This document shows, one piece after another, positions 26,412-55,559 of a DNA stretch of 64,000 nucleotides. The stretch comes from Candidatus Binatia bacterium (GTDB lineage: Bacteria > Desulfobacterota > Binatia > HRBIN30). The stretch spans positions 1 through 64,000 of the forward strand of contig JAOAHD010000016.1 in NCBI GenBank assembly GCA_026415395.1, read 5' to 3'. Each line of letters starts with the position of its first letter. Within the stretch, counting starts at the first letter, position 1. The notes below the pieces were generated by a model, which saw only the letters and a program-made list of their open reading frames with translations, was not told the DNA's origin and ran no database searches. The position numbers were made by a program, and so were the translations under genes.

Positions 26412-27872
26412 TCAATGACCGGCGCGACGCGTCCGCCCGAGTAGCCTAGCCAGAGCTGCCGCGAATGCCGCAATCATCAATACACCGGCCGGAGCACCGG
26501 GCGATGGGACCACAGGAATCGGTGGAGGCGTGCGCGTCGGCGTGCGGGTGCGCGTCGGTGTCGTGGTCGGTGTGGGAGTGGGAGTTGCAGTGGCCGTTGG
26601 GGTGAACGTTGGCGTTGGTGTGGAGGTCGGGGTCTCCGTAGGCGTGAATGTCGGCGTCGGTGTCGGCGTGCTCGTAGGCGTCGGCGTGTTCGTGGGTGTA
26701 TTTGTGGGTGTATTCGTCGGCGTCGGCGTGGGGGTCGAGGTCGGGGTATTCGTGGGCGTATTCGTCGGAGTGTTGGTGCGCGTGTTTGTGGGCGTGTTCG
26801 TCGGGGTATGCGTGGGCGTGTTCGTGGGTGTGTTCGTGGGTGTGTTCGTCGGCGTGGAAGTCGGAGTATCGGTCGGTGTGTTCGTGGGCGTGGCCGTGGG
26901 CGTATCTGTGGGTGTCGCCGTTGGCGTGGGTGTCGGAGTGTGCGTCGGGGTATCGGTCGGCGTATTAGTTGGAGTCGGCGTGTCGGTCGGCGTATTAGTC
27001 GGCGTGAACGTGGGTGGTGGCGGAGGTGGAGCACTTTGGCTCTGGCCGTCCGCACTCACCACGCTCCCGGCACTACATTGCGGGTTATTCGTACCATCCG
27101 TGTCTACGCCGAATCCCGCCGCTCCGATGGTGAAACCAATGTTGGACAAACCGCTGTCGTAAACGAACACGATCGCCCGGCCAGCTGGCAAGCTGAACCC
27201 ATCCGTGGGTGCCGATGCACACACGTTGGTATTCGTGGTCGGCGGCGCATCGCACGTGCCGTCGTTATTCGTGTCCAAGCCGAATCCATACGTCGTCACC
27301 AGCGAGCTCGTACAGCCAGCCGCTACGTTGGAGGCCGTACAAGCGCGCGGCACGTTCGCGTCTGCAGTCAAAATTGACACGAGGTTCACCACCGTCTCTG
27401 GGCCAATGCAGTCGGCTGGGTTGCGACAAATCTGCAAGCCTGTCGGACCAGAGCCAAACACCAGCCGACCACTCCCTCCGGGAGAGAACGAGACGGTAAG
27501 GGACGACGGGTTCAACACCGTCGTTCTCGAAATCTGCGTGTCAGGAAAGAGACTCTGGCCCGCTGATGGGTCCGCACCCACGACCGCTCGAGCAGCAGCC
27601 CCCTGTCCGCCGACCACGCCGGAGCAGGACACGAGCCCCTGGACCCCGCCGGCCAATGTCGTAATCCGAACCTCTTCTGCACCTGCTGCAAGGGGCCCAG
27701 GGGGAACTATGATCACCTGGTATACCGTGCCGTCCGCCGCACGTTGAGACGACCCTTGGTTAATTTGCGCCGCGGCATCACGAGCACCGACACTGAAAGC
27801 GAGCCACGCAACGAGCAAGATGGCAACGTTCCTGTGTGGAAGGAGGCCCACTAGATCCTGCGCTTTCACCAC
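26412..27872 (-). CDS. Thr-Pro-rich surface protein with sorting-signal-like C-terminus (paralogue 1)
   Basis: This 486-residue protein has a signal peptide (about 1-35, ending ARDAAAQ) and an N-terminal globular domain of unknown family (about 36-285). That domain has paired cysteines, an ICRNPADC segment and two calcium-site-like loops (DTNNDGTCD and [10 protein letters not shown]). A T-P-T-N-T-P linker (about 287-445) follows, then the tail [15 protein letters not shown], a hydrophobic helix ([15 protein letters not shown]) and the basic end GRTRRAGH. The three-part tail matches the layout of PEP-CTERM and IPTL-CTERM signals processed by exosortases, and an exosortase is encoded at 37695-38234. 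It starts with GTG 27872, with AAAGGTGG just upstream, 37 bases after the stop of its paralogue. Confidence 0.85.
26527..27020. repeat. Short-period Thr-Pro coding repeat of the 26412 gene
   Basis: About 500 bases of 12-base units encoding T-P-T-(N/D/S/P), read on the minus strand. The plus strand shows an open Val-Gly-Val frame that is a by-product. Unit identity is higher than in the other linkers, which suggests recent expansion. Confidence 0.9.
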
Positions 27873-27909: not shown

Positions 27910-29160
27910 CTATTCCACCTGCGAACGCCTGATCGCCCGCCGCATCATCCATACGAGAGCTACCGCAAGGCCGCTGATCATCGCGACACCTGCCGGCGAT
28001 GCCGGCGACGGAACCACAGGAATTGGCGGCGGGGTCGGCGACGGCGTGATCGTCGGTGTCAACGTGGGTGTGGGTGTTCGCGTCGGGGTCACGGTCGGCG
28101 TATTCGTCGGTGTCTGCGTCGGCGTCGACGTGAGTGTGTTCGTTGGCGTGTTTGTCGGAGTCCGTGTCGGTGTTTGCGTCGGGGTCGAGGTGGAGGTCGG
28201 CGTTAACGTAGGAGTCGAGGTCGGTGTCCGGGTAGGCGTAGACGTCGGTGTCGGCGTGTATGTTGGGGTGTTTGTCGGCGTTGGCGGAGGCGGTGGCGGA
28301 GCACTCGGGTTCTGCCCATCAGCCGTAATCACCGTGTTCGCGGAACAATTCGGGTTATTAATACCGTTCGTGTCGATGCCGAAACCGCCTGCACCCACGG
28401 CAAAGCCCGTGTTGGCCAGGTTTCCATCGTAAATAAACACAATGACCTGCCCCGGTTGCACAGTAAAACCATCGGTCGGCGACTCCCCGCACACAGTCCG
28501 GTTGGTGGTCGGCGAGCTTAAGCATTGCTTTGTATTCGAGTCCCGCGAGAGCCCGAAACCGAAGGTGTTAAAATTAACGCTCGAACAGAGGGCCGTGACC
28601 CCGGTTGCGATGCAAGCTTGAGGCACTGCGGTACCAGTCACCGAGCCACTGTAAACGGTATTTCCGTCGAGATCGAAAACGGCGGCATCTGGATTACCAC
28701 CCGAACAATCGGCAGGATTCCTACAAATGTCGATACCACCAATGGTGAGTCGCCCTCCACCTCCAGCACTGAAAGAGACCGAGCTGACACTCGAGGGCGT
28801 AAGGACGTTGGTTCGTAAAACCGCAGCAAACGGGTGCAACGATCCGATGTTCGGGTCTACCCCTGCCACCGCCGCCGTGCTTTGCCCGGACGAACCGCCA
28901 GGGGAGGAACACGACTGAACCCCCGACGTAGACCCCGCAATGGTGGTAATTCGCATCTCATCCGCCCCAGCAGCCAAAGGCGGGGGTGGAACAACGAGCA
29001 CCTCGTAAGCGGTACCGTCCGACGCCCGTTGGTTGAACGACAAACTAAATTGTGCATGAGCTTGTGCTCCCCACAACACGGCGACGAGCAACCCGAGCGA
29101 GCCGCCTCCCAAAGTCCGCCACCCACCGGCTACCCAATCTGCCATCCGTCCTCGTGCCAT
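27910..29160 (-). CDS. Thr-Pro-rich surface protein with sorting-signal-like C-terminus (paralogue 2)
   Basis: This 416-residue paralogue of the 26412 protein has a signal peptide (about 1-36, ending AQAHAQ), the same globular domain with [35 protein letters not shown] and [14 protein letters not shown], and a shorter Thr-Pro linker (about 90 residues). The tail is [15 protein letters not shown] + [13 protein letters not shown] + [12 protein letters not shown]. The identical IPVVPSP-x2-PAG motif in both paralogues marks it as the conserved part of the sorting signal. AAAGGAG lies seven bases before ATG 29160, which decides the start over one 27 codons upstream. It is the first gene of a minus-strand run with 26412 and perhaps 23828. 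Confidence 0.87.
28030..28290. repeat. Short-period Thr-Pro coding repeat of the 27910 gene
   Basis: About 260 bases of the same T-P-T-x coding repeat, shorter than in the neighbouring paralogue; linker length is therefore variable between the two copies. Confidence 0.88.
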
Positions 29161-29766
29161 CCACAAACTCCTTTGACCGTTAGCGACGTTCTGCTCAAAG
29201 CCCAACTGGCCCCGCGTGAAATGCGACCCGACCCCTATCACGCTCTCCGAACAGATGTCAACCGCAAACTGGAGAGGAGCTGCCCATTCTCCCTGCGATT
29301 CTCATTAAGGTCGGGGCAGCTTTCCGCGCAGTTCCCGCGCGACGTCCTCCTTTTCGTCCGAGCACGGAACCAGTCCGACGGCGCCTCCGCGCGGGATCGG
29401 TTGGCCCTAAATTTTAGAGGTTGATTTGCCGGTGAATTTGCGGGATGAATTGCGAGCCCGCATTGCCCGTTACGCAGTGCTTCGGCGCGAGGAGTGGGAC
29501 TGGAGGCGGCTGGGTATGCAGACCGGGCGGACCCAACGGTCCTCGGAAACTATGACAAACCGAGGGGGGACATGCCTGTTGGTAACAACTACGGCAAATT
29601 TTTGCCGGCGGGTTCGAACATTTTCGTCCGACGACCAAGAGGGAAACAGCAGCGTCCAATGGAGGGAATCTGGCACGGATTTGGCGCGTGGCTTTCGGTA
29701 CTTACGACAAGGCACTCGATTCCTCAGTCTCTCCGCTGATGACCCCGCTCGCGCTGGTAAAGCTGA
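29161..29766. other. Divergent intergenic region between the surface-protein genes
   Basis: About 600 bases separate the divergent 27910 and 29767 genes. A promoter candidate for the minus-strand gene is at 29234-29261. On the plus strand a frame at 29426-29770 starts with TTG five bases after AGAGG and ends overlapping the 29767 start as ATGA, but only its first 35 codons look protein-like, so I do not call it a gene. Nothing else is recognised. Confidence 0.5.
29234..29261 (-). promoter_or_regulatory. Candidate promoter of the 27910 surface-protein gene
   Basis: On the minus strand a perfect TTGACA (29256-29261) is followed after 16 bases by GATAGG (29234-29239). The predicted start of transcription is near 29227, leaving a leader of about 67 bases before ATG 29160. 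The -10 element is weak. Confidence 0.4.
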
Positions 29767-32700
29767 ATGAACGATAAGCTCAACCGATTGCGTTTCCGAT
29801 TGGCTCGATCCGACTCGACCGGCGTCGCGGCATGGCTGTGCGTTCCCACCGCGATGCTATTCCTCGCTGTAGCCCTCAGCACCACCTCTCTCGCCTTGCA
29901 ATTGCCCCCGCTGGGCAACATCGACACCGTCGTCGGCGGGGGCGTGGGCGACGGTGGCTGGGGGTCGAACGCGATCGTCGACCCGCGCGGCATGGTCGTG
30001 TGTGGGCGCTCGCTCTTCATCGCTGATGGCCTCAACCACCGTGTGCGCAAAGTGGACCTCGACTCCCTGGTGATCCAGACAGTTGCGGGCACCGGAGAGC
30101 GTGGCTTTTCGGGCGATGGTGGCCCGGCAACCGCAGCAAAGCTCAATTTCCCCACCGATGTCGCTTGCGCTAAAGACGGAAGCTTGTTCGTGGCAGACAC
30201 GTTCAACCACCGCATCCGCAAGATCTCGCGGGACGGGACAATCCTCACGGTGGTTGGGGACGGCCGCGCGTTCAGTAATGGGGACGGTGGGCCCGCGACC
30301 TCTGCCAGCGTAAACTCGCCGCGCGGTGTTGCCCTGGATTCCGCAGGAAACCTGTACGTCGCGGAAACGGACGGAAACCGCATCCGCAAGGTGGGAGCAA
30401 ACGGCATCATCACCACTGTTGCGGGCACAGGCTCTTGGGGTTTTGGAGGCGACAATGGTCTCGCGACCCAAGCGAAACTCGCCAACCCGTGGCACGTCGC
30501 GGTCGATTGGGCCGGGAACCTATTCATCGCGGATTACGGCAATTCGCGCATTCGCCGCGTCGATGTTCAAGGGATCATCACAACCGTGGTCGGCGACGGC
30601 TGGCAGGCATTCTCCGGCGATGGCGGTCCGGCTTCGGGAGCGCGCATCTTCAACCCAGGGAAGCTGCTCTTCGATACCGCCAACAATCTGTACTTCACCG
30701 ATGTCGGGAACAACCGCGTGCGCCGGCTCACTGCCGTTGGCGGGATCGTGACATCGGCCTCCATCATCGACACCGTCGCGGGCAATGGCGTTCGCGCTCC
30801 CTCCCCCGATGGCGGGCCCGCCACGCAAACGAGCTTCGCCATGCTCACGGGTTTGGCTTGGGATGGCGTGACCGGCTCCCTCTACGTTGGCCAGTATGCA
30901 ACCAACCCGCCCAATCGAGAGAATCGTGCGCGAGCGGTGTTGGCCTCGGGCATGGTCGCTCCTTTCGTCGGGGGCGGGGTCGGCGACGGTGGCGCAGCGG
31001 AACACGCACTCATCGATCCCGCTGGGCTCGTGGTGCGCCCGCTGCTTACGACCTACGGCTTCGAGCTTTTCATCGCCGATGCCACCAACAATCGCGTGCG
31101 CGCCGTCAGTTCGGTTACCGGCACGATCACGACCGTTGCCGGCGATGGCAGCGCGTGCGTCACTGGTAGCTCCTGCGGCGACAATGGCCTGGCGGTTGCC
31201 GCCCAGCTCGACAGCCCGTTCGATGTCGATCTCGACGTGTTCGGCAACTTGTACATCGCCGAACTCGGCGGCCACCGCATCCGCAAAGTGGACGCAGCTA
31301 CCGGCACGATCACCACCGTCGCCGGCACCGGCGGATTTGGTTACAACGGCGACAACATCCCGGCAACGCAAGCAACGTTAGCAAACCCGTACGCAGTTGC
31401 CGCCTCAGCCAGCGACGGTGCCCTCTACATTGCGGACTTCCAAAACAATCGCATCCGCAAGGTGGACCGCGGCATCATCACCACGGTGGCGGGGAACGGC
31501 AACTGGGGCAACCCAGCGGACGGTTCGGTTGCCGCGCAGTCTCCCCTCGGCGCCCCCACGGACGTGGCGATTGGGCCAGACGGCACCCTGTACTTTGTCG
31601 ACCGTGGGAATAACATAGTGCGGCGCATTCGTGCTGGCTTGTTAGAGCGGGTGGCAGGTACGGGGTGGGCGGGATTTGCCGGTGACGGCGGACCCGCCAC
31701 GCAAGCGCAACTTTCTGGGCCGACGCGGATTGCCTTCGACCAATACGGCGGCCTCCTGATTGCCGATGCGGGCAATTATCGGATCCGTCGGGTAGACATG
31801 TCTACAGGCATCATCACCACCGTGGCTGGCAATGGTGCCCCGATGAACTCAGGCGATGGGGGACCGGTACTGGCCGCAAGCCTCACGCGGGTCAGTGGTT
31901 TAGCGATCGACGACGAAGGGCATCTCTTCTTGTCGGTACCCGACGCGGCGCGGGTGCGCGTGGCAAGCTTGGACATCGCACCGCCGATTCCAGTGGCTAC
32001 CGCGTCGCTCACTCCTAGCCCCACAGTGACGCTAGCACCAAGCTCAACGGGCACACCGACCGCAACCAGAGCGGCAACGAATACGCCGACATTCACCCCC
32101 TCACCGACAGCAACGGCAAGCCGTACGTTTACCCCTTCGAACTCGCCAACACCAAGCTTTACGCCGACCCCTACGGCGTCGCCCACAGTGACGGCAAGCT
32201 CCACCCGCACGGCGACGCCAACGGAGACCGCTACTCACACCCCAACACGCACTCCGACTTCCACAGCTACTGCGACCAACACGTTCACCGCAACGAACAC
32301 ACCCACACTGACTTTCACGCGCACACCGACCCTCACGCCCACCCAGACGGCCACCTGGACCGCCTCGCCGACGCCGACACAAACCTTCACCCCGACGAAC
32401 ACCCCCACCGCCACCCACACGTTCACTACGACACCGACGCGCACCTCCACACCCACGCGCACGGAGACGCGTACACCGACCCCGACCGCCACACCATCGA
32501 ACACGCCGACTCAAACTGCAACCCATACGCCAACCAACACTCCGACGCCGAGCTTCACACCGACACCGTCACGAACACCGACGAACAGCTCTACTCCGAC
32601 GCTATCCCCAACCCGCACCGCAACAAACACCGCGACGAGCACGAGGACGCCGACACCGACTCGAACCGCCACTCCGACCATGCCTCCGTCGCCCACATTC

Positions 32701-33879
32701 ACGCTCACCCTAACTCCCACCCAGACGTTCACGTGGACGCCCACCCGCACGCCGTCATCCACGAGCACGCCGACCTTCACGCCGACTGCAACCGCAACGA
32801 GGACGGCAACGAATTCGCCCACCGCCACTCCCTCGTTCACACCGAGCCGCACCGTGACGGCCACGAACACGGGCACGCCTACGCGCACCGCAACACCGAC
32901 CACCACGGCGAGCCCGACGCCAACCGCTACTCCAACAGCGAACGGAATTCGCCTGAGCGGAATGGTGACCTACTTCAACAGCGTTAACCCGCTGCCCGAC
33001 GTGTTAGTCCGTGCCGACACCCGGGGAGGTATGCTCGAGGCCCGCACAGCAAGCGATGGCAGTTATCGAATCGAGCAAGTACCCCCGGGCTCCGTGAGTG
33101 TGGCGGCACTTCCGGATCAAAGTCACTCGCTGAACCCGCGGATCAGCACGGGAACCGCAGCGATTACAGCAGCAGATGCCGTGAAAGTCCTGCAAGCGGT
33201 GACCGGACTGCTTGCCCTGACGGATCTCGAGCAATCCGTCTGCGACGCTAACGGTAGCGGCTCGATCACGGCCAGCGATGCAGTGGCTATTCTCCAGTCC
33301 GTGGTCGGCGCAGCGCCTGAGGACTCATGTATCGGTACGTGGGCCGTGAAGCCCGATGCAGGTCTTCCGCCAATCGCCACTCCCACGCCCACCACAACCG
33401 GCTCTTGTGGGCCGCATCTGCAGGTATCTTTAGCCGACGCGCTCCAAGACGTGAGCGGAATTAACTTTGTCTCTGGAGTGGTCGGTGACTGCAACGGCAG
33501 TCTCGCTGGCAACAGCGGAGGACTCGTCGCCCACGCGCTGCGCGAAGACCCGACACGAACGGGCGCCGTTGTCGGCAGACCTCTTCGTCAACGCGGCGCC
33601 TGGCGAGTCCCAGTAGAAGTCCTGGCCTCGCGGCCTTGGAGCGCGGCCACGGTGCACATTCGCTTCGATGCCCGCCGCTTGCGCGGGATGCGCGTCTCCG
33701 TACCGAAAAGCACCGACGGTTCACTGACGGCTTATAGGGTCGGTAGCAATGAGGTGATGCTGGCGGTTGCCCGCCCGCACGCCCGGGCGGACCACAAGGT
33801 TCTCGCTTGGCTGCTTTTCGACCGGCGCGTTCGACCTGGCAGCGATGTATTGGCAATTCAGAACGTGCGAGTGGAGTAA
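29767..33879 (+). CDS. NHL-propeller surface protein with Thr-Pro linker, dockerin and cohesin-like domains
   Basis: This 1370-residue protein has a signal peptide (about 1-47). A long array of NHL-type propeller repeats (about 50-735) has the unit TVAGTG[23 protein letters not shown]2-GNLYIAD-x2-N-x-RIRKV. A Thr-Pro linker runs from about 739 to 1058. A carboxypeptidase-regulatory-like beta-sandwich follows (about 1062-1120: [20 protein letters not shown]), then a type I dockerin-like pair (about 1131-1182: [13 protein letters not shown] and [20 protein letters not shown]) and a cohesin-like domain (about 1278-1370). The last three modules recur in the next gene. Such propellers usually bind proteins or sugars. 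No C-terminal sorting tail is present (ends NVRVE). Confidence 0.85.
31990..32945. repeat. Thr-Pro coding repeat of the 29767 gene
   Basis: About 950 bases of irregular T-P-T-x coding repeat read on the plus strand; the reverse strand shows open Val-Gly-Val frames as a by-product. Units are more diverged than in the 26412 linker. Confidence 0.88.
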
Positions 33880-33977
33880 CTTTCTGCCGCTCTCAAGGCG
33901 GACGCAAAATCTTGCTTGAGTGCGGTGAGCCACGGTGGCATCGTCGATTCCAAAGCGCAGAGCTGTTGAATGCGTCC

Positions 33978-36900
33978 ATGAGCCGGCTTCGTGACTGGTG
34001 TTTCTTGGTGATCCTCACGATCATCGCCTCGGCTGGCCAGCGGGCTCTGGCCAGCACCTTCGTACCCATGAACGATGAAGCGCTAGTGGCAAGCTCGGAC
34101 GCGATTGTGCTTGGCCGCGTGGGCCAAATTCGCTCCCACCTCGATGCGGCGCACAGCGTCCGCACCGAGGTGAGCGTGGAGGTGTACGAAGTCCTCAAGG
34201 GCCAGGTGGGCGATCCGGTGCTGATGGTGTGGGTCCCCGGAGGTCAGGTCGGGGAGCACATCGAATGGATTTTCGGCGCTCCGCAGTTCCTGATGGGAGA
34301 AGAGGTTCTGTTGTTTCTCGTTCGCGACGTTCGGGGGCAGTGGCAAACAAATTCTCTCGCGTGGGGCAAATTCGGGGTTCGCCAGCAAAGCAATGGCACT
34401 TCTGTAATTGTGCGCGAGCTCGGGCTCGGCACTGCTCTCCTCGATCCGGGCGGCGGGCTTGCGTCGCCGGCAGCACGCGTGGAAGAGCTCTGGTCATTCC
34501 TCAACTACATCCGCGGACTCGTAGGCCCTTCCGCGCCACGCGGTGCGAGCGAAAGCGAGCCGACACCTGCTGCGACAGACAATAGCGGTGAATTCGAATA
34601 TCACGCTGCCTTTACCCTCCTCGGGAGCCCACCGGCCCGCTGGCACGAGGCGGACACAGGAACTCCGGTGACGTATGTGAGCACGGCCGACAGCGCTCTT
34701 GGTCCCACTGCGTCCATGCAAGCCGTGAGCGACGCCTTGGCCGCGTGGAGCAGTGTGTCCGGAGCCTCCCTGGTGTTAGCCTATGGCGGCTTGATGAGCC
34801 CGACTCCGACACCGGCTCCGGGCTTCCCTACACCGACACCGCTCGGCTACGGCGGATGTGCTTTCAACCGAGTGATCTTCGATGACCCGCGCGGGGAGAT
34901 CACGGATCCCAGCAATTGTAGCGGCACGTTGGCAATCGGCGGTTACTGCGCAAGCGGCTTTAACCAAGTCACCGTGAATGGCACCACCTTTGTTGGAATT
35001 ACCGCCGGCAAAGTGGTGCTGAACAACGGGTGGTCCACGCAATGCCCCAGCTTCTGGACCCCTTGCCTGGTCGCCGAGGTCATCACCCATGAAATCGGCC
35101 ACAGCATCGGATTCGGCCACTCCTCTGAAAACCCATCGGAGCCGAATTTCACATTGAAGGACGCCACCATGTACTACCGCGCACACAACGACGGGCGTTG
35201 CGCCCAAGTGCGCGTTGACGATGTGGCCGCGATGCAGTTCGTGTACCCATATTCTGGGCCCACGTTTACACCCACGGACACACGAACCCCTACCAATACC
35301 CCCTCGGTAACCCCCACGCCCACCATGACCTCCACCCGCTCGCCGACCAACAGCGCAACGCCCTCGCGCACTCCAACTGGCACCTTCACTCCGACTGCGA
35401 CGAGAACTCCCACATCGACACTGACGTTCACCGCCACTCGCTCCGCGACACCAACACCAACCGCCTCCTTCACGGCAAGCCCCACGCTGACAGCAACGCT
35501 GACGGCGACTCACACGCCCACACCCACAATTTCCGCCACACCTACCGAGACCGCCACCGCGAGCAACACACCCACCCCGTCGATCACGGCCACCCCCACT
35601 CCGACCCCCCTGCCGAGCGACACGCCAACCACTACAGCCACGCCGACCGAAACTCTGTCTCCAACACGAACCCCTACGCCGTCCGCCACCGCCACACGGA
35701 CAGCGAGTTTCACACCGACGCTCACGCCGACATTGTCCCCGACGGGCACGAGCACCGCGACGCGAACGACCACTCCGACGCACTCCCCTACGGGCACACC
35801 GACTGTAACACGCACGCCCACCGAGACCCCGACACCTACGGAAACCGCCTCCCCGACCCTCACAGCAACAGAAAGTCCGACGCCGCCTTTCTCGCCGACC
35901 GCCACCACAACTTCCACACCCTCCCCTATGACCACGCCATCCGCCACACCGTCTCTCACCCCCACCTTTTCAAGCACGCCCACACGCAGCCTTACTCCAA
36001 CACCGACATTTACCTTCACTCGCAGCGCAACACCGTCCGCAACGCCCACACGCTCCCCGACCTCGACGGCAACCTTCTCCCCGACTCGGACTTCCACACC
36101 GTCTCCAACCCTGACACCCACTGCAAGCCCGTCGCGCACCGCAACCTCGTCAGCCACGCACACTGCCTCGCCCGCACCGTCCCCAACTCCCACCCCCGCG
36201 CCAACCAACTCGCTCACCGGCAGCGTGGTTTACCGCGAAACCTCCCAAGCTCTCAGCGGCGTGCAGGTGCGGTTTACCGACCCGGCCATCGACGCGCTCA
36301 CGAACTCCAACGGCGAGTTTGTTCTCAGCTCCGTGCCGCTCGGCATTGGGCGGATCACGCCTTCGTATAGCGGTGCGGTGAACGGTGCCGTTACCGCCGC
36401 CGATGCCGTGGTCATCTTGCAAGCTCTTGTAGGCATGCAGTCGCTGAACGCCGCGGGAACCCTTGCCGCGGACGTGAACGCGTCGGGAGACGTTACCGCG
36501 GCTGACGCGGCCACAGTCCTGCAGTATGTGGTTGGCAGTATACCGGAGTTTCCTGCCGCGGCCAGGTGCGGCTCCCCGTGGCTCTTCTTGCCCGAACCGG
36601 ATCCGGCGCCCAATCAACTGATCGTTACACCACAACCTGCAGCGAATCCTTGCGTCGCCGGTGCGATCGCGTACGAGCCGCTCAGCACGTCTGCTGCGGG
36701 GCAAAATTTCACCGGCATTCTCCTCGGGGACGTCAACGCCTCTTGGCAAGCTTCGGGACCGCTGATCGCGAAGCATACCGCCACGGCGCACCGAGGCCCG
36801 ATGCGGCTCGTGCGTCGCAGCGGCCAAACGGTGGTCCGGATTCCATTTCGCATCGTACCGTCAAGGCCGTTCTCCGCACTCGAGGGTAGCCTGCGTTACG

Positions 36901-37109
36901 ACCCGCGCACGATTCGCTCCGTGCGGGCTCGTCTCGTGGCTCGCGGTGGGAATGTTCTGGTGGCCCAATACGCCAGCGGCGGAGAGTTACGGGTGGCCGC
37001 GGCAAGTGCCGTCGCGATTGCCGAACCCAGCACCCTATGGGTCGACGTTCGCGGGGCCGCCGCAGTCCCGCGCGGAGCGCTTCGGATCGAGTGGATTCAC
37101 GTCGAGTGA
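33978..37109 (+). CDS. Secreted metzincin-type metalloprotease with Thr-Pro linker, dockerin and cohesin-like domains
   Basis: This 1043-residue protein has a signal peptide (about 1-27, ending RALAS), an N-terminal domain (about 28-185) of unknown type, and a zinc protease domain (about 205-425). The consensus [11 protein letters not shown] is at 371-381 (ligands H371, H375, H381; catalytic E372) and a Met-turn candidate is ATMYY at M398. The matrixin-like spacing puts it in the metzincins. A 315-residue Thr-Pro linker (about 428-743) leads to a regulatory-like beta-sandwich (744-793), a dockerin pair (about 800-855: [33 protein letters not shown]) and a cohesin-like domain (about 940-1043). 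The start codon is chosen for the signal peptide; its ribosome binding site is weak. The 3' end overlaps the convergent membrane-protein gene by 13 bases. Confidence 0.87.
35270..36205. repeat. Thr-Pro coding repeat of the metalloprotease gene
   Basis: About 930 bases of T-P-T-x coding repeat, mostly with diverged units. As in the other four linkers, the complementary strand is open as Val-Gly-rich frames without ribosome binding sites. Confidence 0.88.
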
Positions 37110-37711
37110 GCGCGGGCTGGTGACTTGTGGCCCCGTTGATGGCCGTTGGCCTGTGAGAATCGCCGCGCCCGACCGGCAATCGAGAGGAGTTGGCGAAAAT
37201 GGATCCCAGCCCAAATCATGAAGGGGACAACTTGAGTGTCCACATACATCGCCAGGTCGGTGAGCAAGGCCAAGCGGTAGCGAAACCGAGCGCTATAGGC
37301 CTGCGGGTCGATTCTCGTTGCATACCCAAACTCGATTGCCAAAACGACGTCGAGCACTTGCCACAGCAGCAATAGCAAGAGCGCCACACTGAGCCGTTTG
37401 CTCTTTGCGTTCCAGGACGGAGCGGGCGTCGCGATCATCAAGGCGAGGAGCAGTACCGTGTTTGCGTGGATCCACTCCGCAGCAATGCTCGGCGGGTTGC
37501 CTGGAATTTGGTAGCCGCGCGGCCAAAAGAACAACGTCGTGCCCGACGACCACACGCTCGTAGGCCGATCGACGATGCTTACCACCAATTCGGCAAACAC
37601 CGCCAACCCTGCTGTGTATGCCGAGCCAATCAGGAGCCAAAAGACAAAGAAGCCCAAGAAAGCCAGGAGTATGCGGCCCAAGAATTTGAGTGGCTCAACG
37701 GCCAGCGACAT
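37097..37711 (-). CDS. Exosortase-associated polytopic membrane protein (XrtH-associated type)
   Basis: This 204-residue protein has about four hydrophobic segments: [57 protein letters not shown] and one near 165-180. Its loops contain [22 protein letters not shown]. Proteins like this are encoded next to exosortase H in other bacteria. It overlaps the exosortase gene by 17 bases on the same strand, so the two are coupled. Its biochemical role is unknown; a function in anchoring or handing over the substrate is plausible. ATG 37711 is preferred over the longer frame because of the membrane segment, though its ribosome binding site is weak. Confidence 0.65.
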
Positions 37712-38234
37712 GCACGAACCGCTGCGCCCAGTACAGCCACGTTGCCACGGCGACGACAATAATCATCGCCTGCGCCAAGTAGACGTGGGTGTAATGGAAG
37801 TATGGGTTGGCGAACAACCCGACGAGAAAAAGCCCGACGACCCGCAGCACGTTGAGTGCGTGGATCACCACCGCTCCAAGCACCAGCCCAACGCACCGCG
37901 AAACCCAACTGGCCGGGTAAGCGAGCACAGCCGCACTGTAAATCGCGGTCGGCACCACTCCGGAACACGCCTCTGTCACATCCACGGCAAAGCCGTTCGC
38001 GCTTAAACGCGTGCCCTCGACCGACAGCGTAAAGCCCAACAATGAGCCTAAGACACGCAAGAAAATCGCGCTGGCCCAGGTGGCGAACTGCGCCATCCAT
38101 GCCGCGACGTTCAGCCGATCCGCAAGCGGCGCGTAGTCGGTGGCAAAAAATACCAGCAGGATCACCGCCAAAAACGTTCCGACCACGCGGATCACCAGCC
38201 ATTGCTCTCGCAGCCAGCGCCACAACATCGACAC
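37695..38234 (-). CDS. Exosortase (XrtH-like transpeptidase)
   Basis: This 179-residue integral membrane protein of the exosortase/archaeosortase family has the catalytic-site elements EACSGVVPTAIYSAAVLAYP (catalytic Cys in ACSG) and IHALNVLRVVGL (conserved Arg), followed by the late His-containing HYTHVYLAQ. Exosortases cut C-terminal sorting signals and may attach the protein to a membrane or cell-wall-linked carrier. Its small size and the partner membrane protein fit XrtH, whose usual substrates end in IPTL-type signals. The start is GTG 38234 with AAGGAG eight bases upstream. The two proteins with IPVVPSP tails at 26412 and 27910 are the likely substrates. Confidence 0.85.
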   Translation of the reverse strand: MSMLWRWLREQWLVIRVVGTFLAVILLVFFATDYAPLADRLNVAAWMAQFATWASAIFLRVLGSLLGFTLSVEGTRLSANGFAVDVTEACSGVVPTAIYSAAVLAYPASWVSRCVGLVLGAVVIHALNVLRVVGLFLVGLFANPYFHYTHVYLAQAMIIVVAVATWLYWAQRFVHVAGR

Positions 38235-38404: not shown

Positions 38405-40996
38405 ATGTTGGCGTGGGCTCGATCGCTCGCCCGAGCAGCACTTGGGCTGGTCGAAGCAGGAGCGTGGTTGGTGGCACTGCTGGTGTTGGTGAGCGTGTTC
38501 GTCTGCTGGCACACGCTTCAGGCGCCGGACCTCCGCGTGATGCGTCAAGTTTTGGCGCGGGTTCAGACCCTGGTCGCCAATCAGACCACCGAGGCACTTT
38601 CGCTGCACGCTCGCGTCGAGGCGGACCGACGCGAAATCGTCGCCGCCGCAACCCTGCGCATACGGCAGACTTCCAACACCCCCGCGGCTCCACTGTATTT
38701 CCTTCTCGATCCCGGACTGCGAGTCCAACACGTCACAATCGAGTCCCCCGAGCGGAATCAAATCCCCGTGCACTGGGTGCAAATCGGCCCGCTAGTACAA
38801 ATCTTCCCGCCACGGATGAGCGCGGCGGAGCAACGCGTGCGGATCCGCTACGCTGGCCAGCCATTGCTCCATCCGGCGGACTGCAGGATCGACGCCACGG
38901 AAGTTCTCCTGCCCCCGGATTGCCTTTGGTACCCCATGGACGGGCAGAGCTTTTTCTCACTCGAAGCGAGCATCGAGTTGCCTGCGAATTGGGAGCGCAT
39001 CGATAGCGCGGGGACGGCGGAGACCTACTGGAGAGGTCTCTACCGGGAGCATCGCTGGGAAACGCACCGTGCCGTGGCCGGATTTAGCCTCGTCGCAGGA
39101 GCGTATCGCTATCACGAACGATGGGCGGGCGAGGTGCGTCTCCGCGTGTACGTGCCCGCACACGATCCTTTGGATCCCGCAGCACTCCTCGACACGATGG
39201 AGAGTGCTTACGGAGCACTGACGAGTCGCCTCGGTCCCAGCGGTTTTCCAGTGCTCAGTCTGTTCGTTCACCCTGCGCTGAATCGTGCTTTTCACGATGG
39301 AGCGGGCTCGATGGGGATTCCGCGTCGTTCCCTCGCCAGTGAAGACGGCGGTTTCGCGCTGGTCGCTCACGAGCTGGCGCATTCGTGGTGGGGCGCAACC
39401 GTTACCGGAGGTTGGTTGCGCGCAGGCACGGGCGCGCAATGGATTATCGAAGGATTCGCGGAAGCGAGCAGCCTTCTGGCTACCGAGTCCGTTTATGGGC
39501 GCGACGCGCTCGTCAAGCGGCTCCTCGGCGAGTTCTACGATCCTCAACAGCAACAGGCACTGGTCGAAATGACCGTGCTGGACAACGCCCTGCCGGAGGC
39601 GCACGCGCGGGAGACCATCTACCGCAAGGGTGCGTATGTGCTGTGGATGCTCCGCCGCATCGTCGGCGATAATGCCTTCTTCTCCGGGCTCACCGAGCTG
39701 GTGCACAGCTACGCCCAAAAGGAAGCCGGAGTTGCAGAGGTGCAAGAAATTTTCGAACGGGCGAGCGGCCAAGACCTGAGCGCGTTCTTCGACGATTTTG
39801 TGCGTGGGCGAGCAACGCTGGATTTCTCGCTAGATCCGGCTTCTCCGGGAACGTTGTCGCTTACCAACGTGGGCACCGCCAAATGGCAACACCCAGTAAC
39901 GGTAATCATTCGCGCCCCCGACAGCGCAGCAACACGCGAGCTCGAGGTGATTCCCCCGGCCGAGATTCCCATCGGGGCAGCGAATGCCGAAGTGCTCGTC
40001 GATCCTTACTTGCATTGGGCGGATGTGACACGAGAGAACAATCGCTATCCGCGCAGGGAGGAGCCATTGTCGGTCACCGCCAGCGACCGCGGCATCTTGG
40101 TGGTTAGTGGCGAAGGGTTCCCGTGGTCGAAAACCCGTGTGCGCCTCGAACCCACGGCTGGGGAAGTCAAGGAGTGGGAGTTCCCTCGCGGCTTGCTAGG
40201 ACCCCCGCGGGTGGACGGGGAGCACGGCTGGTTTGTGCTGAACGTTGCCGCGTCGCATGGGGACACGGGCAAGGTCGTGGTGGTAGAGGCCGACGGCAGC
40301 CGACGCGAAGTTGGAGCGGGCCGTGCTCCCGTGCCGGCCGACGGCGGCGCAATTTTAGTTGCCGCTGGCAACCGGGTGGTGCGCTATGGCCCCTCCGGCC
40401 GCGCACGAACGTTGCTTCGCCTTCCCAACGAACGAGTGGAGATGATCGTTCCTCTTGCGTCGGCCGGGCACTTTGCCCTGGTGACGACTGATAAATTTTT
40501 CAGCAACCTTCTCGTGCAGCGCGACGCAACGGCGCGGGTAGAGACCGTGTTCCGTTGGGAGAGGTCTCCACAATTCGTCGTCTGGCGAGCCGCTGACGAG
40601 TCTTTCTTCGTCAGCATACCCAACGGCTGGGTGTGGGAAGTTTGGCAGCTTTCTCCGGACGTACCCCCGGCTCGGCCGCTCGTTCAAGGCGCCGTGCTGC
40701 TTAGCGATCTGGCTTTAAGCCCCGAGGGCAATCTGCTCGCCTTTGTTGCAGCACCGGCACGAAGATACCCGCGCACGCAGCGACAGGTCTTTGTGCTCGA
40801 CCTGAGCGAACGGCGGGTGCAGCACTGGTCGGACCCGGACCTCGACTTCACACAAGTTGCCTGGGCGGCAGACAATGCCTTGCTCGCCATTGCTCGGCGC
40901 ATCCCACCGGATCGCCCGTTGCTCTACCCGTGGTCCCGTACGATCGTGCGGCTACGAGTTGGCCAGGATGGGCTCGCCCTCGAAGCCAGCCCCTAG
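38405..40996 (+). CDS. Membrane-anchored M1-like aminopeptidase fused to a beta-propeller
   Basis: This 863-residue protein has an N-terminal transmembrane anchor (about 15-35). The M1/gluzincin catalytic domain (about 60-480) carries HELAH at 322-326 and the third ligand E349 (WIIEGFAE). The spacing to the third ligand is 22 residues, four more than in canonical M1, and the GAMEN-type motif reads GAGSMGI at 299-305. From about 560 to 860 the sequence reads as propeller-like strands (GGAILVAAGNRVVRYG, DLALSPEGNLLAFVAAP, FTQVAWAADNALLAIA). It should act in the periplasm on peptides. It lies divergently from the exosortase gene, so a role in surface-protein processing is a speculative possibility. 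Confidence 0.85.
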   Translation: MLAWARSLARAALGLVEAGAWLVALLVLVSVFVCWHTLQAPDLRVMRQVLARVQTLVANQTTEALSLHARVEADRREIVAAATLRIRQTSNTPAAPLYFLLDPGLRVQHVTIESPERNQIPVHWVQIGPLVQIFPPRMSAAEQRVRIRYAGQPLLHPADCRIDATEVLLPPDCLWYPMDGQSFFSLEASIELPANWERIDSAGTAETYWRGLYREHRWETHRAVAGFSLVAGAYRYHERWAGEVRLRVYVPAHDPLDPAALLDTMESAYGALTSRLGPSGFPVLSLFVHPALNRAFHDGAGSMGIPRRSLASEDGGFALVAHELAHSWWGATVTGGWLRAGTGAQWIIEGFAEASSLLATESVYGRDALVKRLLGEFYDPQQQQALVEMTVLDNALPEAHARETIYRKGAYVLWMLRRIVGDNAFFSGLTELVHSYAQKEAGVAEVQEIFERASGQDLSAFFDDFVRGRATLDFSLDPASPGTLSLTNVGTAKWQHPVTVIIRAPDSAATRELEVIPPAEIPIGAANAEVLVDPYLHWADVTRENNRYPRREEPLSVTASDRGILVVSGEGFPWSKTRVRLEPTAGEVKEWEFPRGLLGPPRVDGEHGWFVLNVAASHGDTGKVVVVEADGSRREVGAGRAPVPADGGAILVAAGNRVVRYGPSGRARTLLRLPNERVEMIVPLASAGHFALVTTDKFFSNLLVQRDATARVETVFRWERSPQFVVWRAADESFFVSIPNGWVWEVWQLSPDVPPARPLVQGAVLLSDLALSPEGNLLAFVAAPARRYPRTQRQVFVLDLSERRVQHWSDPDLDFTQVAWAADNALLAIARRIPPDRPLLYPWSRTIVRLRVGQDGLALEASP

Positions 40997-41815: not shown

Positions 41816-41884
41816 CAGTTCCGCCTCGATCCCCTACTGGTGCCGAGTTTTCATGACCGTTGGGCTTCGCTACCCAGAGCGGTC

Positions 41885-44428
41885 ATGTACGCAGCTTCAC
41901 TCGAGCGGCGCGTGGAGCAAGCCCCAGAAAGCTCCGGCGTGCGAACCGCAGGCAAGTTCTTTTTCCGGGGCGACGAGAAACTTTATCTGCGCGGTGTCAC
42001 CTATGGTCCATTTGCCCCGCACGACGGCACGTTTTTTCCCCCTCGCGAGACCGTCGTGCGCGATCTGGCGTTGATGCGCGACCTGGGCGCCAATTGCCTG
42101 CGCACATTCACTCCGCCACCTGCTTGGTTTCTGGACTTGGCCGCCGAACACGGAATCATGGTACTCGCGGGCATCCCGTGGACCGAGCACGTTTGTTTTC
42201 TCGACCATTCGGACGTCACCAAGGGCATCCGTACTGACGTCACCGCCGCCATCCGGGCCCTGGGCCGGCATCCGGCCGTATTTGGCATTCTCATCGGCAA
42301 CGAAATCCCTCCCGATATCGTGCGTTGGCACGGCCCCCGGCGGATTGCTGACTTCCTGCGCGGCCTTTTTGCGATAGCCAAAGAGGAAATGCCTGATGCC
42401 CTCGTGAGCTATGCGAATTTCCCGCCGACCGAGTACTTGGAGCTGGATTTCATCGATTTTGTTGCCTTCAACGTGTACCTGCACCGCGAGGGCGACTTTC
42501 GCCGCTACGTGTCGCGTTTGCAGAATTTGGCGGGCGAGAAGCCCCTGGTGCTGACCGAATTTGGCGTCGACTCTTTACGAGAGGGTGAAGACCGGCAGGC
42601 AGAAATCCTCGCTTGGCAAGTGCGCGCCGCATTCGAATGCGGCGTGGCCGGGACGTTCGTGTTTTCTTGGACGGACGATTGGTTCACCGGCGGTTTTCAA
42701 GTGGAGGACTGGGCCTTCGGATTGGTCGACCGCACTCGCCACCGCAAGCCGGCGTTCGCGAGTGTCCAGCGGCTGTACCGCGGCGTACTCCCTCCTCCTC
42801 TAGCCCAGCCGCCGAAAATCTCAGTGATCATTTGCGCTTACAATGCGGAGCGGACAATGGATGCCTGCTTGGCTGCGCTCCGCAAGCTGCGGTATCCGGA
42901 CTACGAGGTCATCGTCGTCAACGACGGTTCGACCGACCGCACCGAGGCCATCGCGAAGAGATATCCCGAGTTTCGGCTGATTTCGCAACCAAACAAAGGA
43001 CTCAGTGTCGCTCGCAACGTCGGTCTCGAAGCTGCCCGCGGGGAGATCGTTGCCTACACCGACTCCGACTGTGTGGTCGATCCCGACTGGCTCACCTACC
43101 TCGCCTACAAATTCGTTTCCTCCGACTTTGCCGGCGTCGGTGGACCGAACCTGCCACCGCCGGAAGATTCAGCCATTGCTGCTTACGTGGCGGCGGCCCC
43201 CGGAGGCCCCACCCATGTACTCATCGATGACGAAGTGGCGGAGCACATTCCCGGCTGCAACATGGCGTTCCGCAAGGAGGCGTTGGAGAAGATCGGCGGT
43301 TTCGATCCTGTCCACCGTGCTGCGGGGGACGACGTCGATGTGTGTTGGCGCCTACAAGACGCAGGGTATCGCATTGGGTTCAGTGCGGCGGCTCAAGTTT
43401 GGCATTTTCGCCGCAACACGGTGCGCGCTTACCTCAAGCAGCAGATGGGCTACGGGCAAGCAGAAGCACAACTCTACTTCAAACATCCCTTTCGGTTCAA
43501 CATGCTCGGTCAGTCGCAATGGATTGGGCGGATTTACGGAGATATCGGTCTGCCGGTGCTTTCCTCTCGCCCGATCATCTACTACGGCGTGTTCGGGCGA
43601 GGGCTGTTTCAGACTCTGTATGAAACGCCGTCCTCGTTGCTTGCGTTTCTTCCCTTCACCTTGGAGTGGAACCTGATTGGCGTCGTACTCTTGTGCGGCG
43701 CTGTCATTGCCGGGCGGTGGCGCGTTGCTGCTGCTTTGCCGTTGCTGGTTCCGGCCGGAATCGCCCTAATCCGAGCCTGGCGGGCCAAAATCGACCCGCG
43801 CTTCGACCACTGGCGGGGACGCCTGCTGGTGGCCGCGCTCATTTATTTCGGCCCATTGGTCCGCAGTGTCCACCGGTACCTCCACCGCATCCAAGGGCAA
43901 AACGGTGCCTCGCGAATCCAGTTCACCGGCGTACCCCAACAGCCGGAAGTGCATTGGCGTCAGCGCCAGTTCTTATTGCGCTTTTGGAGTGAGACCGGAA
44001 CCGAAAAGGAGCATTTCCTCCAGGCGCTGATCGATTTTCTAACGCCGCGCAAATACCTCGTGGCGATCGATCAGGGATGGAGCGACTACGACATCAGCGT
44101 CCACCGTGGCTTGTGGTCGCGGGTGGACGTTACTGTCGCTGCCGAGAACCACGGGGGAACCAAACGGCTCCTCCGTACGCGGAATCGAGTGCGCCCTTCG
44201 TGGTTCGTTCGTTCCCTGTCCACAGCACTGCTGATTGTGGCTGTGCTTGCATTGGTGAGCGGGCTTCGCGAGGTCGGGGAACTGGCATTGTTGCTCCTCG
44301 CCATCTCCGTGGGTGTGACTGGCGTGGAAGCGCTCCGCCTCGGGCAAACCGTGTGGCATGCGCAAGAAATCGTGGCCCAGCAACTGCATCTCTTCAGCGA
44401 TGACAGCGTCGCGTCCACCCGCAGGTAG
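41885..44428 (+). CDS. Glycoside hydrolase-like TIM barrel fused to GT2 glycosyltransferase
   Basis: This 847-residue protein joins a retaining glycosidase-type barrel (about 20-300) to a membrane glycosyltransferase. The barrel has the acid/base motif ILIGNE (E140) and the nucleophile motif LVLTEFG (E225). The GT2 domain (about 311-545) has ISVIICAYN, VVNDGST, TDSD at 392-395 and DDVDVCWRLQDAGYRIG. Three to five hydrophobic segments follow near 600-660 and 755-800. GT2 builds a sugar polymer while the barrel would trim or transfer beta-glucan chains. It opens a five-gene run with an ABC exporter and three glycosyltransferase-like genes. The start is uncertain: GTG 41840 adds 15 residues, and neither start has a strong ribosome binding site. 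Confidence 0.88.
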   Translation: MYAASLERRVEQAPESSGVRTAGKFFFRGDEKLYLRGVTYGPFAPHDGTFFPPRETVVRDLALMRDLGANCLRTFTPPPAWFLDLAAEHGIMVLAGIPWTEHVCFLDHSDVTKGIRTDVTAAIRALGRHPAVFGILIGNEIPPDIVRWHGPRRIADFLRGLFAIAKEEMPDALVSYANFPPTEYLELDFIDFVAFNVYLHREGDFRRYVSRLQNLAGEKPLVLTEFGVDSLREGEDRQAEILAWQVRAAFECGVAGTFVFSWTDDWFTGGFQVEDWAFGLVDRTRHRKPAFASVQRLYRGVLPPPLAQPPKISVIICAYNAERTMDACLAALRKLRYPDYEVIVVNDGSTDRTEAIAKRYPEFRLISQPNKGLSVARNVGLEAARGEIVAYTDSDCVVDPDWLTYLAYKFVSSDFAGVGGPNLPPPEDSAIAAYVAAAPGGPTHVLIDDEVAEHIPGCNMAFRKEALEKIGGFDPVHRAAGDDVDVCWRLQDAGYRIGFSAAAQVWHFRRNTVRAYLKQQMGYGQAEAQLYFKHPFRFNMLGQSQWIGRIYGDIGLPVLSSRPIIYYGVFGRGLFQTLYETPSSLLAFLPFTLEWNLIGVVLLCGAVIAGRWRVAAALPLLVPAGIALIRAWRAKIDPRFDHWRGRLLVAALIYFGPLVRSVHRYLHRIQGQNGASRIQFTGVPQQPEVHWRQRQFLLRFWSETGTEKEHFLQALIDFLTPRKYLVAIDQGWSDYDISVHRGLWSRVDVTVAAENHGGTKRLLRTRNRVRPSWFVRSLSTALLIVAVLALVSGLREVGELALLLLAISVGVTGVEALRLGQTVWHAQEIVAQQLHLFSDDSVASTRR

Positions 44429-46211
44429 GCAAAACCCTCCACGGGTGTTGCCTTTTGTGCTCCGTTCCCTCGCCCCATACAAAGGGCGCTTCGTAGTGGG
44501 CTTGGCGCAAGTTGCATTGATCACCGCCCTGGAATTGGCCAAGCCTTGGCCGCTCAAGATCGCAATTGACTATGTGCTCCCCAACCAACCTCCTCCGTGG
44601 CTGCCTGCCAGCATCGGTCGGCAACACACCTTGCTCCTCATTGCCACGGTGGGCCTTGTGGCGATTTATGGACTCCTGGGAGCCGTTCAGGTGTGGAACA
44701 ACTACACCACCATCGCCATCGGCCAAAGCATGGTCGCCGACCTACGGAGCAAGATGTACGAACACTTGCAGCGTCTCTCGCTGTCCTTTCACACCCGCGC
44801 CTCCGTGGGCGACCTCATTTACCGGGTGACCAGCGACACCTACGCGATCCAGACCCTCGCAATGAACGGCGTGTTCCCAGTGCTAGCCTCGGCGTGTTTG
44901 CTGACCGGAATGTTCGCAGTGCTCGTGCAGATGGACTGGCTGCTCACCCTCATGGCGGCAGGGGTCTGTCCGGCTCTCGTGGCGGTGCTGTTCCTGATGG
45001 AACGCAAGCTCACCGACACTGCGCGCGAGGCACGCGAGCGAGAGAGCGAAGTGTACGAGCATGTGCACCGGACGATGTCGGCCGTGAAAGTGGTGCAAGC
45101 GTTCAGCAAAGAGGCAGAGGAGCACGCCGACTTTACGCACCGGAGTGCAGCCAGTCTGCGCGCCCACCTCCGCCTTTACCTTTGGCAAACGGCCTTCGGC
45201 GCCTCGACCGGCCTGTTGCTCGCGGCTGGAAGCGCGGCGGTGTTGTGGTTTGGTGCCCAACGGGTATGGACCGCAGGGCTAAGCGCGGGCGACCTCGTGG
45301 TGTTCCTCAACTACCTGGCTTCTTTGTACTCTCCGTTGCACGCCATCTTTGCCACATACGGCTCCGTCCAGGGAGCCAGGGCAGGTCTGCGTCGGGTGCT
45401 CGAGCTGCTCGCGACGACACCCGAGGTGCAAGACGGCCATCGCGTTCTGAGCTGGAAGCCGGCTGGTCGCGTTCGTTTCGAGCACGTCAGCTTTGCCTAT
45501 GAGCCAACAAAACCGGCGCTGGTCGACATCGATTTCGAAGTGGAGCCCGGGCAAGTGGTGGCAATTGTCGGGCCCACGGGCGCTGGCAAAAGCACCTTGG
45601 TCAGTCTTGTTCCGCGGTTCTACGACCCAGGTGAAGGGCGAGTTCTCCTCGATGACGTGGACGTGCGCGAGTTTACCCTCCATTCGTTGCGACAAGTGGT
45701 CACCATGGTCTTGCAGCCCCCCATCGTGTTCCCGGTTTCCGTGCGGGAGAACATCGCCTACGGGCGCCCCGATGCGTCGACAGCGGAAATTGAGCGCGCC
45801 GCAAAGCTCGCACAGGCCCACGCCTTCATCGAACGCCTGCCGCAGGGATACGACACGACTCTCGGCAGCCAGGGTGCGACGCTGTCCGAGGGTGAGAAGC
45901 AGCGCTTGACCATTGCCCGCGCGTTGCTTCGCGACGCGCCAATTCTCATCCTCGACGAACCGACCTCGTCGGTCGATCTTGCCACCGAGGCTGCCATTAT
46001 CGAGGCATTGCGCGCGGCGATGCGCGGAAAAACAACCTTTGTCATTGCCCACCGGCTGCCCACGGTGCAGCAAGCCGACCTCATCCTTGTGCTCGACCGT
46101 GGCCACATTGTGGAGCGCGGTACCTTCGAGGAGCTGCTCGCGAGGCGGGGATTCTTTCACCACTTGTATTCCCACGGGCTTGTTGCACCGCCCCCAGAAA
46201 CCAGGGTATGA
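44400..46211 (+). CDS. ABC exporter with fused membrane and ATPase domains (MsbA-like)
   Basis: This 603-residue half-transporter has six transmembrane helices (about 15-315) and an ATPase domain (about 355-590) with Walker A GPTGAGKST, Q-loop VLQPP, signature LSEGEKQRLTIARALL, Walker B ILILDEPTS and the H-loop IAHRLPT. The LSEGE variant of LSGGQ occurs in other exporters linked to such glycosyltransferase operons. Homodimers of this type move lipids, glycolipids or sugar-linked lipids outward. It overlaps the glycosidase-GT2 gene by 29 bases and the next gene by four (ATGA), so the operon is tightly coupled. Confidence 0.93.
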   Translation: MTASRPPAGRQNPPRVLPFVLRSLAPYKGRFVVGLAQVALITALELAKPWPLKIAIDYVLPNQPPPWLPASIGRQHTLLLIATVGLVAIYGLLGAVQVWNNYTTIAIGQSMVADLRSKMYEHLQRLSLSFHTRASVGDLIYRVTSDTYAIQTLAMNGVFPVLASACLLTGMFAVLVQMDWLLTLMAAGVCPALVAVLFLMERKLTDTAREARERESEVYEHVHRTMSAVKVVQAFSKEAEEHADFTHRSAASLRAHLRLYLWQTAFGASTGLLLAAGSAAVLWFGAQRVWTAGLSAGDLVVFLNYLASLYSPLHAIFATYGSVQGARAGLRRVLELLATTPEVQDGHRVLSWKPAGRVRFEHVSFAYEPTKPALVDIDFEVEPGQVVAIVGPTGAGKSTLVSLVPRFYDPGEGRVLLDDVDVREFTLHSLRQVVTMVLQPPIVFPVSVRENIAYGRPDASTAEIERAAKLAQAHAFIERLPQGYDTTLGSQGATLSEGEKQRLTIARALLRDAPILILDEPTSSVDLATEAAIIEALRAAMRGKTTFVIAHRLPTVQQADLILVLDRGHIVERGTFEELLARRGFFHHLYSHGLVAPPPETRV

Positions 46212-49871: not shown

Positions 49872-49935
49872 ACGGCGCGGGATTCGCTAATTCCGAGCGA
49901 CCGCGTTCCAGCGCACCACATTGGCGGAGGGAGTC

Positions 49936-51420: not shown

Positions 51421-51436
51421 AGAGGAGTTCGCCCAC

Positions 51437-53967: not shown

Positions 53968-53989
53968 CTTCGGTTAGGAGGTGGCACTG

Positions 53990-55534: not shown

Positions 55535-55559
55535 AGAGCAGGAACAAGGAGGTGCACTC

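Follow-up and report, generated by a model that had tools for sequence, protein, structure and literature searches.

The window analysed here, the whole 64,000-nucleotide stretch of Candidatus Binatia DNA, carries a compact exosortase gene that overlaps the gene of a membrane protein, together with two tandem genes for surface proteins that share an unusual C-terminal tail. A first-pass annotation, made from the letters alone, had read these four genes as a distinct exosortase-signal pairing with Thr-Pro-rich substrates, and the question that the locus raises is whether the tail is a sorting signal of its own kind and, if so, which enzyme processes it. To our knowledge, how each exosortase discriminates its own tail from others is poorly understood.

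Tail protein A (27910..29241, minus strand) has an N-terminal beta domain, a Thr-Pro stalk, and a sorting tail, and tail protein B (26412..27872, minus strand) is its tandem paralogue, with an N-terminal domain 51% identical to that of A. In each, a 15-residue signal motif (27988..28032 in A and 26484..26528 in B, minus strand) is followed by a hydrophobic stretch and an Arg-rich end (27913..27987 in A and 26415..26483 in B, minus strand), which bears out the reported order of motif-x2-PAG, hydrophobic helix, and Arg. The N-terminal signal peptide and C-terminal helix of the tail proteins were both judged by eye. Both genes are on the strand of the exosortase gene, at distances of 9.7 and 11.2 kb from it and outside 37097-38234. 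The Thr-Pro-rich open reading frames directly beside the exosortase are larger; these encode an NHL beta-propeller protein (29767..33879, plus strand; Thr-Pro stalk) and a matrixin-like zinc peptidase (33807..37109, plus strand; Thr-Pro stalk and dockerin), both without a sorting tail, and are conserved neighbors, not proposed substrates.

For the head of protein A, structure prediction gave a high-confidence all-beta domain (pLDDT, 91.9). Seven of its eight best structural rows were staphylococcal surface adhesins, several rows coming from the same proteins (Z, 5.4 to 6.9; best Z, 6.9, with an rmsd of 4.1 over 142 residues), a Z below 8 not being evidence of kinship; the best Foldseek E value was 0.056. 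Adjoining the tail genes is a further Thr-Pro-rich protein (window 23828-26125, minus strand), which is without the tail; its N terminus matches cohesin (24.6 bits; cut-off, 24.1), and its C terminus looks dockerin-like by eye. An IS630-type transposase gene (window 22610-23587, plus strand; 113.4 bits; cut-off, 100) also lies near the tail genes.

The tail parts typical of exosortase substrates (motif, helix, and basic end) are present in 27 aligned tails, in which the motif reads PP[IV]P[VL][VI]xSPxx[PGA][AS]G (consensus, PPIPVVxSPxxPAG) and the following hydrophobic stretch often ends in W-x-LRR. These 27 profile rows were gathered with a motif expression, and the invariance of the columns concerned is partly built in; the profile also picked up tails that the expression had missed, such as VIPVVRSPVSPAG (G001) and PVPVVPSPTSPPG (G006). 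A search with only the two window tails reached each of the other 14 genomes in the order (best match per genome, E ≤ 2.1e-9). With the 27-row profile, which was built from those matches, at least 31 places (E ≤ 1.8e-10) were found in 15 of 148 genomes of the class, all 15, the window's own genome included, belonging to that one order, so the tail does recur in related genomes. Among the matches listed, the remaining 133 class genomes gave single matches in four only (18.8 to 20.8 bits; E, 0.00186 to 0.0081), and an even sampling of the phylum (395 genomes) gave strong scores only in G000 (the window's genome) and G007, with two other genomes at 20.8 to 21.2 bits; the tail counts in both sets are lower bounds. 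The single matches in these four class and two phylum genomes (18.8 to 21.2 bits) were taken as chance. Weak matches in five f4 genomes (L089-L093) and in G001 C2 (L096) were rejected, as no C-terminal tail was seen there and they fell in frames beside or opposite ordinary-looking genes. A strict-pattern scan of genome contigs returned at least eight loci, in records titled Candidatus Binatia, Deltaproteobacteria, or bacteria.

No NCBIfam or Pfam model (IPTL, PEP, and others) matched the tail above its cut-off. The only PEP-CTERM match was NF038119 on protein A (12.2 bits; E, 0.16; cut-off, 100), with the proviso that HMMER filters can hide weak matches; the Pfam PEP-CTERM models gave none at E ≤ 0.1, the isolated tails likewise gave none, and IPTL-CTERM did not match the isolated window tails. 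A literature search, at the level of titles and abstract openings, gave nothing in which the tail was recognized; it returned no paper joining any two of XrtH, IPTL, and exosortase, and a Binatota search returned no mention of exosortase. As judged from these comparisons, the tail is a conserved sorting signal of an apparently undescribed type, and its standing as a distinct signal is well supported.

Proteins of very different build carry this tail. Their N-terminal parts fell into seven groups without mutual similarity (phmmer; E, 1e-3), of 17, 5, 2, 1, 1, 1, and 1 rows, in a comparison that covered 26 of the 31 tail proteins in 28 rows, two being duplicates, and left out three short fragments and two tails missed by the expression. 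The claim of Thr-Pro-rich substrates fits proteins A and B; it does not extend to a third tail protein in G001, which has no Thr-Pro stalk and shows a weak Ig-like end below the Pfam cut-offs, or to one in G007, in which DUF11 stands before the tail (55.4 bits; cut-off, 24.6). The latter gene (L088) has an apparent frame change inside a Thr-Pro repeat, either an assembly error or a real break. A tail protein of G012 is cohesin-like (E, 7e-7 in a one-against-one comparison with the cohesin part of window 23828-26125) and had no match in Pfam. A tail found on seven dissimilar N-terminal kinds behaves as a modular sorting signal should, and one tail common to dissimilar proteins is how sorting signals are described in the available excerpt of PMC3237569.

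The exosortase gene (37695..38234, minus strand) encodes 179 aa, with the Cys in EACSGV, the Arg in NVLRV (LNVLRVVGL), and a His in THVY. Two signature models place the protein as a member of the exosortase/archaeosortase superfamily, both above cut-off (TIGR04178, the exo_archaeo signature, 45.4 bits against 23; PF09721, 30.3 bits against 25.7), in agreement with what had been read from the Cys and Arg motifs. A conserved Cys, a conserved Arg, and a third His or Arg are expected of exosortases; here C90, R131, H147, and H150 are invariant across 14 aligned clade members, every one of which has the ACSG Cys, the N-x2-R-V Arg, and the THVY His.

The partner membrane protein (37097..37711, minus strand; 204 aa if counted from the ATG) starts inside the exosortase gene. 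Its ATG at 37711, set against the exosortase stop ending at 37695, gives the overlap already seen in the first-pass annotation a length of 17 nt; the list of open reading frames instead gives a TTG start at 37759. Coordinates permit an identical 17-nt overlap in all 13 genomes with both genes, the start being chosen over an earlier open start codon in about half of them, and this suggests coupled translation. The AlphaFold model of the partner (pLDDT, 86.5) is mainly helical with short strands, and neither Foldseek nor VIA-align found a structural match to be relied on (the best, diacylglycerol kinase, had a Z of 6.1). Sequences of solved structures, searched with the exosortase, the partner, and the head domain, gave nothing at E ≤ 1. 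The partner is probably an accessory subunit of the exosortase.

Used alone as a query, the window exosortase recovered an orthologue from every other genome of the order but one (13 of 14; E ≤ 2.6e-41). A profile of the window type matched 14 of the 148 class genomes (278 to 307 bits; next best, 120.7), all of them tail bearing, so this exosortase co-occurs with the tail in 14 of 15 genomes and, among the matches listed, is absent elsewhere among the 148. The partner profile matched 13 genomes, a subset of those 14 (278 to 332 bits; next, 34.3); in G005, where no partner was found, the contig stops 34 bp past the exosortase match. The exception among the tail-bearing genomes is G010 (97% complete, 270 contigs), which has two tail genes and in which neither the window-type exosortase nor the partner was found; a search of G010 for one neighbor gene from the G008 locus was equally negative, which fits an assembly gap or lost synteny. 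The 15 genomes are all from a single order, and common descent can by itself produce this pattern of co-occurrence.

A second exosortase type (HECTG) occurs at 25 places in all 15 tail-bearing genomes, G010 included, and scores at most 80.2 bits outside the order. The tail could then be a real signal that is processed by the HECTG type, or by both enzymes, a reading that we consider rather unlikely and that co-occurrence, at 15 of 15 against 14 of 15 genomes, slightly favors. The HECTG gene likewise has an adjacent gene, seen in G000 C7 (L001 and L048), whose product, judged by eye, seems hydrophobic and has no family match. The pair in G000 C7 is flanked by genes that, by eye, resemble apolipoprotein N-acyltransferase and HAD phosphatase. 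With the HECTG type equally distributed and G010 as an exception, assignment of the enzyme turns on linkage. Ten of the 31 tail genes, in five of the 15 genomes (G000, G001, G002, G004, and G007) and two families, lie 7.4 to 14.7 kb from a window-type exosortase, whereas tail and HECTG genes share a contig in G007 only, at least 300 kb apart, distances being measurable on shared contigs only and several contigs being too short for either enzyme. In nine of the 14 genomes with the window-type exosortase, no tail gene lies within 15 kb, several contigs being too short to tell; in G012, the tail genes and the window-type exosortase are on one contig, about 150 kb apart.

The HECTG type also has other candidate substrates at hand. 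A 14-row IPTL-like profile matched 13 of the 15 genomes of the order and three of the 133 others (E ≤ 0.001), although 11 of the 13 had contributed rows and only G004 and G010 are independent of the profile; it misses G001 and G007, yet both have tails of the IPTL-like kind, which were omitted from the profile. The curated IPTL model (TIGR04174) found a tail above cut-off in nine of the 15 genomes. In G008, four of eight IPTL-like tails are on the 93.6-kb contig that carries the HECTG gene. It is plausible that HECTG enzymes serve the IPTL-like tail class, and the IPTL-type tails of the order could be served by exosortases other than that of the window. Gene position favors the window-type exosortase over HECTG as the enzyme for the tail described here, and with linkage in five and co-occurrence in 14 of the 15 genomes, their pairing is likely. 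Of the distinct exosortase-signal pairing first proposed, the distinct signal has good support; the pairing is drawn from these gene patterns, with the HECTG type in every tail-bearing genome and G010 to be set against it.

We regard as improbable the reading in which nothing about the pair is distinct, the window enzyme being an ordinary XrtH and the tail an IPTL signal that has drifted. XrtH (TIGR04177) is the best NCBIfam model for the window exosortase, at 82.5 bits under a cut-off of 86, and scored singly on relatives it gave 76.7 bits (G008) and 67.4 bits (G009), the G009 protein scoring higher with XrtX. The XrtH and XrtX models each match all 14 clade members (the window protein and 13 relatives), and the best XrtH match among them (E, 1.7e-24) is about at the cut-off (85.2 bits corresponded to 4.5e-24), so that some members may be above it. 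The XrtH_assoc model (NF041730) scored the window partner at 17.9 to 18.3 bits, well under its cut-off of 35, and matched five of 13 partner members at E ≤ 0.1 (best E, 3e-7). The likeness to XrtH systems seen in the first pass thus holds for the best model and for the adjoining partner, and falls short of cut-off for both proteins.

In a tree of 49 exosortases, all from this class (midpoint-rooted, with a weak backbone and several flagged long branches), the window type forms one clade (support, 100/99) that groups with five family f9 exosortases (97/82), the inner order of the group being unsettled; of the f9 members, G116 scores above the XrtH cut-off (97.2 bits) and G117 below it (80.6 bits). 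Placement relative to XrtA-XrtG was by profile scores, the tree holding exosortases of this class only. Beside the f9-type exosortase of G117, a CHRD protein (L148) ends in VPAMSGTG, a hydrophobic stretch, and an Arg end, perhaps yet another tail type. Against an ordinary XrtH/IPTL pair in the window, the IPTL model at E ≤ 1 finds three other places in G000, neither window tail among them, and such pairs are seen elsewhere in the class: G010 (L188) has an XrtH above cut-off (91.4 bits) adjoining an IPTL protein (tail, 28.4), and G108 (L149) has one (101.1 bits) within 1 kb of an IPTL protein (tail, 32.1), both enzymes falling outside the 97/82 group on that weak backbone. The most fitting label for the window enzyme is therefore XrtH-like, on the margin of XrtH.

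That the tail is a mere C-terminal membrane anchor without processing is very improbable: its hydrophobic stretch and basic end are ordinary, but conservation spans about 14 residues before the helix on seven protein kinds (in columns partly preselected), which an anchor does not need, and exosortases are present in all 15 tail-bearing genomes.

The reading that we prefer, and hold to be probable, is a dedicated system in which a divergent XrtH-like exosortase serves few substrates through a signal of its own. Proteins secreted by way of an N-terminal signal peptide would cross the inner membrane, and the C-terminal hydrophobic helix would hold the tail protein in the membrane, with its Arg-rich end in the cytoplasm. 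The window exosortase, as the presumed enzyme, would recognize the motif just outside the membrane; the Cys of ACSG would then attack the chain, the helix would be released, and the new C terminus would be handed to a putative acceptor. The head and stalk would in this way be displayed at the surface or released there, and the overlapping partner would probably assist as an accessory subunit. The cut near the motif and the transfer would follow the example of archaeosortase A; for that enzyme, the available excerpt of PMC7157517 gives a proposed model of Cys attack and passage of the new C terminus to lipid.

The genes around the pair are partly conserved. Among 11 loci compared, the NHL protein is found near the linked exosortases of G001, G002, G004, and G007, and the matrixin-like protein near those of G001, G002, and G004 and also beside the exosortase-partner pair in G003 and G006; none of nine relatives of the two proteins examined has the sorting tail. 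The dockerin is above the Pfam cut-off in the matrixin-like proteins of the window and G004. By eye, the ends of the NHL and matrixin-like relatives are cohesin-like, the exception being G007, which ends in F5/F8-type domains. A divergent M1-type peptidase (window 38405-40996, plus strand) adjoins the exosortase and has relatives in the G001-G005 loci. Farther on, on the same plus strand, are a glycoside-hydrolase-2-like part fused to a family 2 glycosyltransferase, then an ABC transporter (window 41840-46211), and two DUF1800 genes, each with a DUF1501 gene after it or close by (window 49921-57020).

More tentatively, one Candidatus Binatia order might run at least two parallel exosortase channels, one that is IPTL-like and serves several substrates and a private one, in which the window exosortase and its coupled partner would pass two or three adhesin-like proteins, through PPIPVVxSPxxPAG, to an acceptor of their own; tail-anchored cohesin-like proteins such as that of G012 might then hold the dockerin-bearing, Thr-Pro-rich neighbors that lack the tail. 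With few substrates, a clear motif, and a second exosortase beside another tail class, the order offers a compact natural test of specificity, and the tail and its exosortase are a candidate marker of surface-protein sorting in Binatota, a group known mainly from environmental genomes.

Among known systems, the staphylococcal adhesins (SdrG, SdrE, ClfA, and Bbp) are an analogy in layout only. They share a beta head, a low-complexity stalk, and a C-terminal sorting signal, which in their case is an LPXTG tail; their sorting enzyme is unrelated, and the structural match of the heads stays under a Z of 8. The archaeosortase A/PGF-CTERM system, which lends the mechanism, has a different signal and belongs to a different domain of life. 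The exosortase/PEP-CTERM system (EpsH) is of the same superfamily and follows the same three-part tail logic, as far as the available excerpt of PMC3237569 describes it, but no PEP-CTERM model reaches its cut-off here and the window enzyme, at 179 aa, is shorter. Closest in plan is the XrtH/IPTL-CTERM/NF041730 system: its enzyme and partner models place the window proteins just under and well under cut-off, respectively, and the window signal is PPIPVVxSPxxPAG in place of IPTL, most genomes having two or three tail genes that lie kilobases off or are unlinked, yet the two have in common a small exosortase core, an adjacent membrane partner, and substrates made up of motif, hydrophobic stretch, and Arg end.
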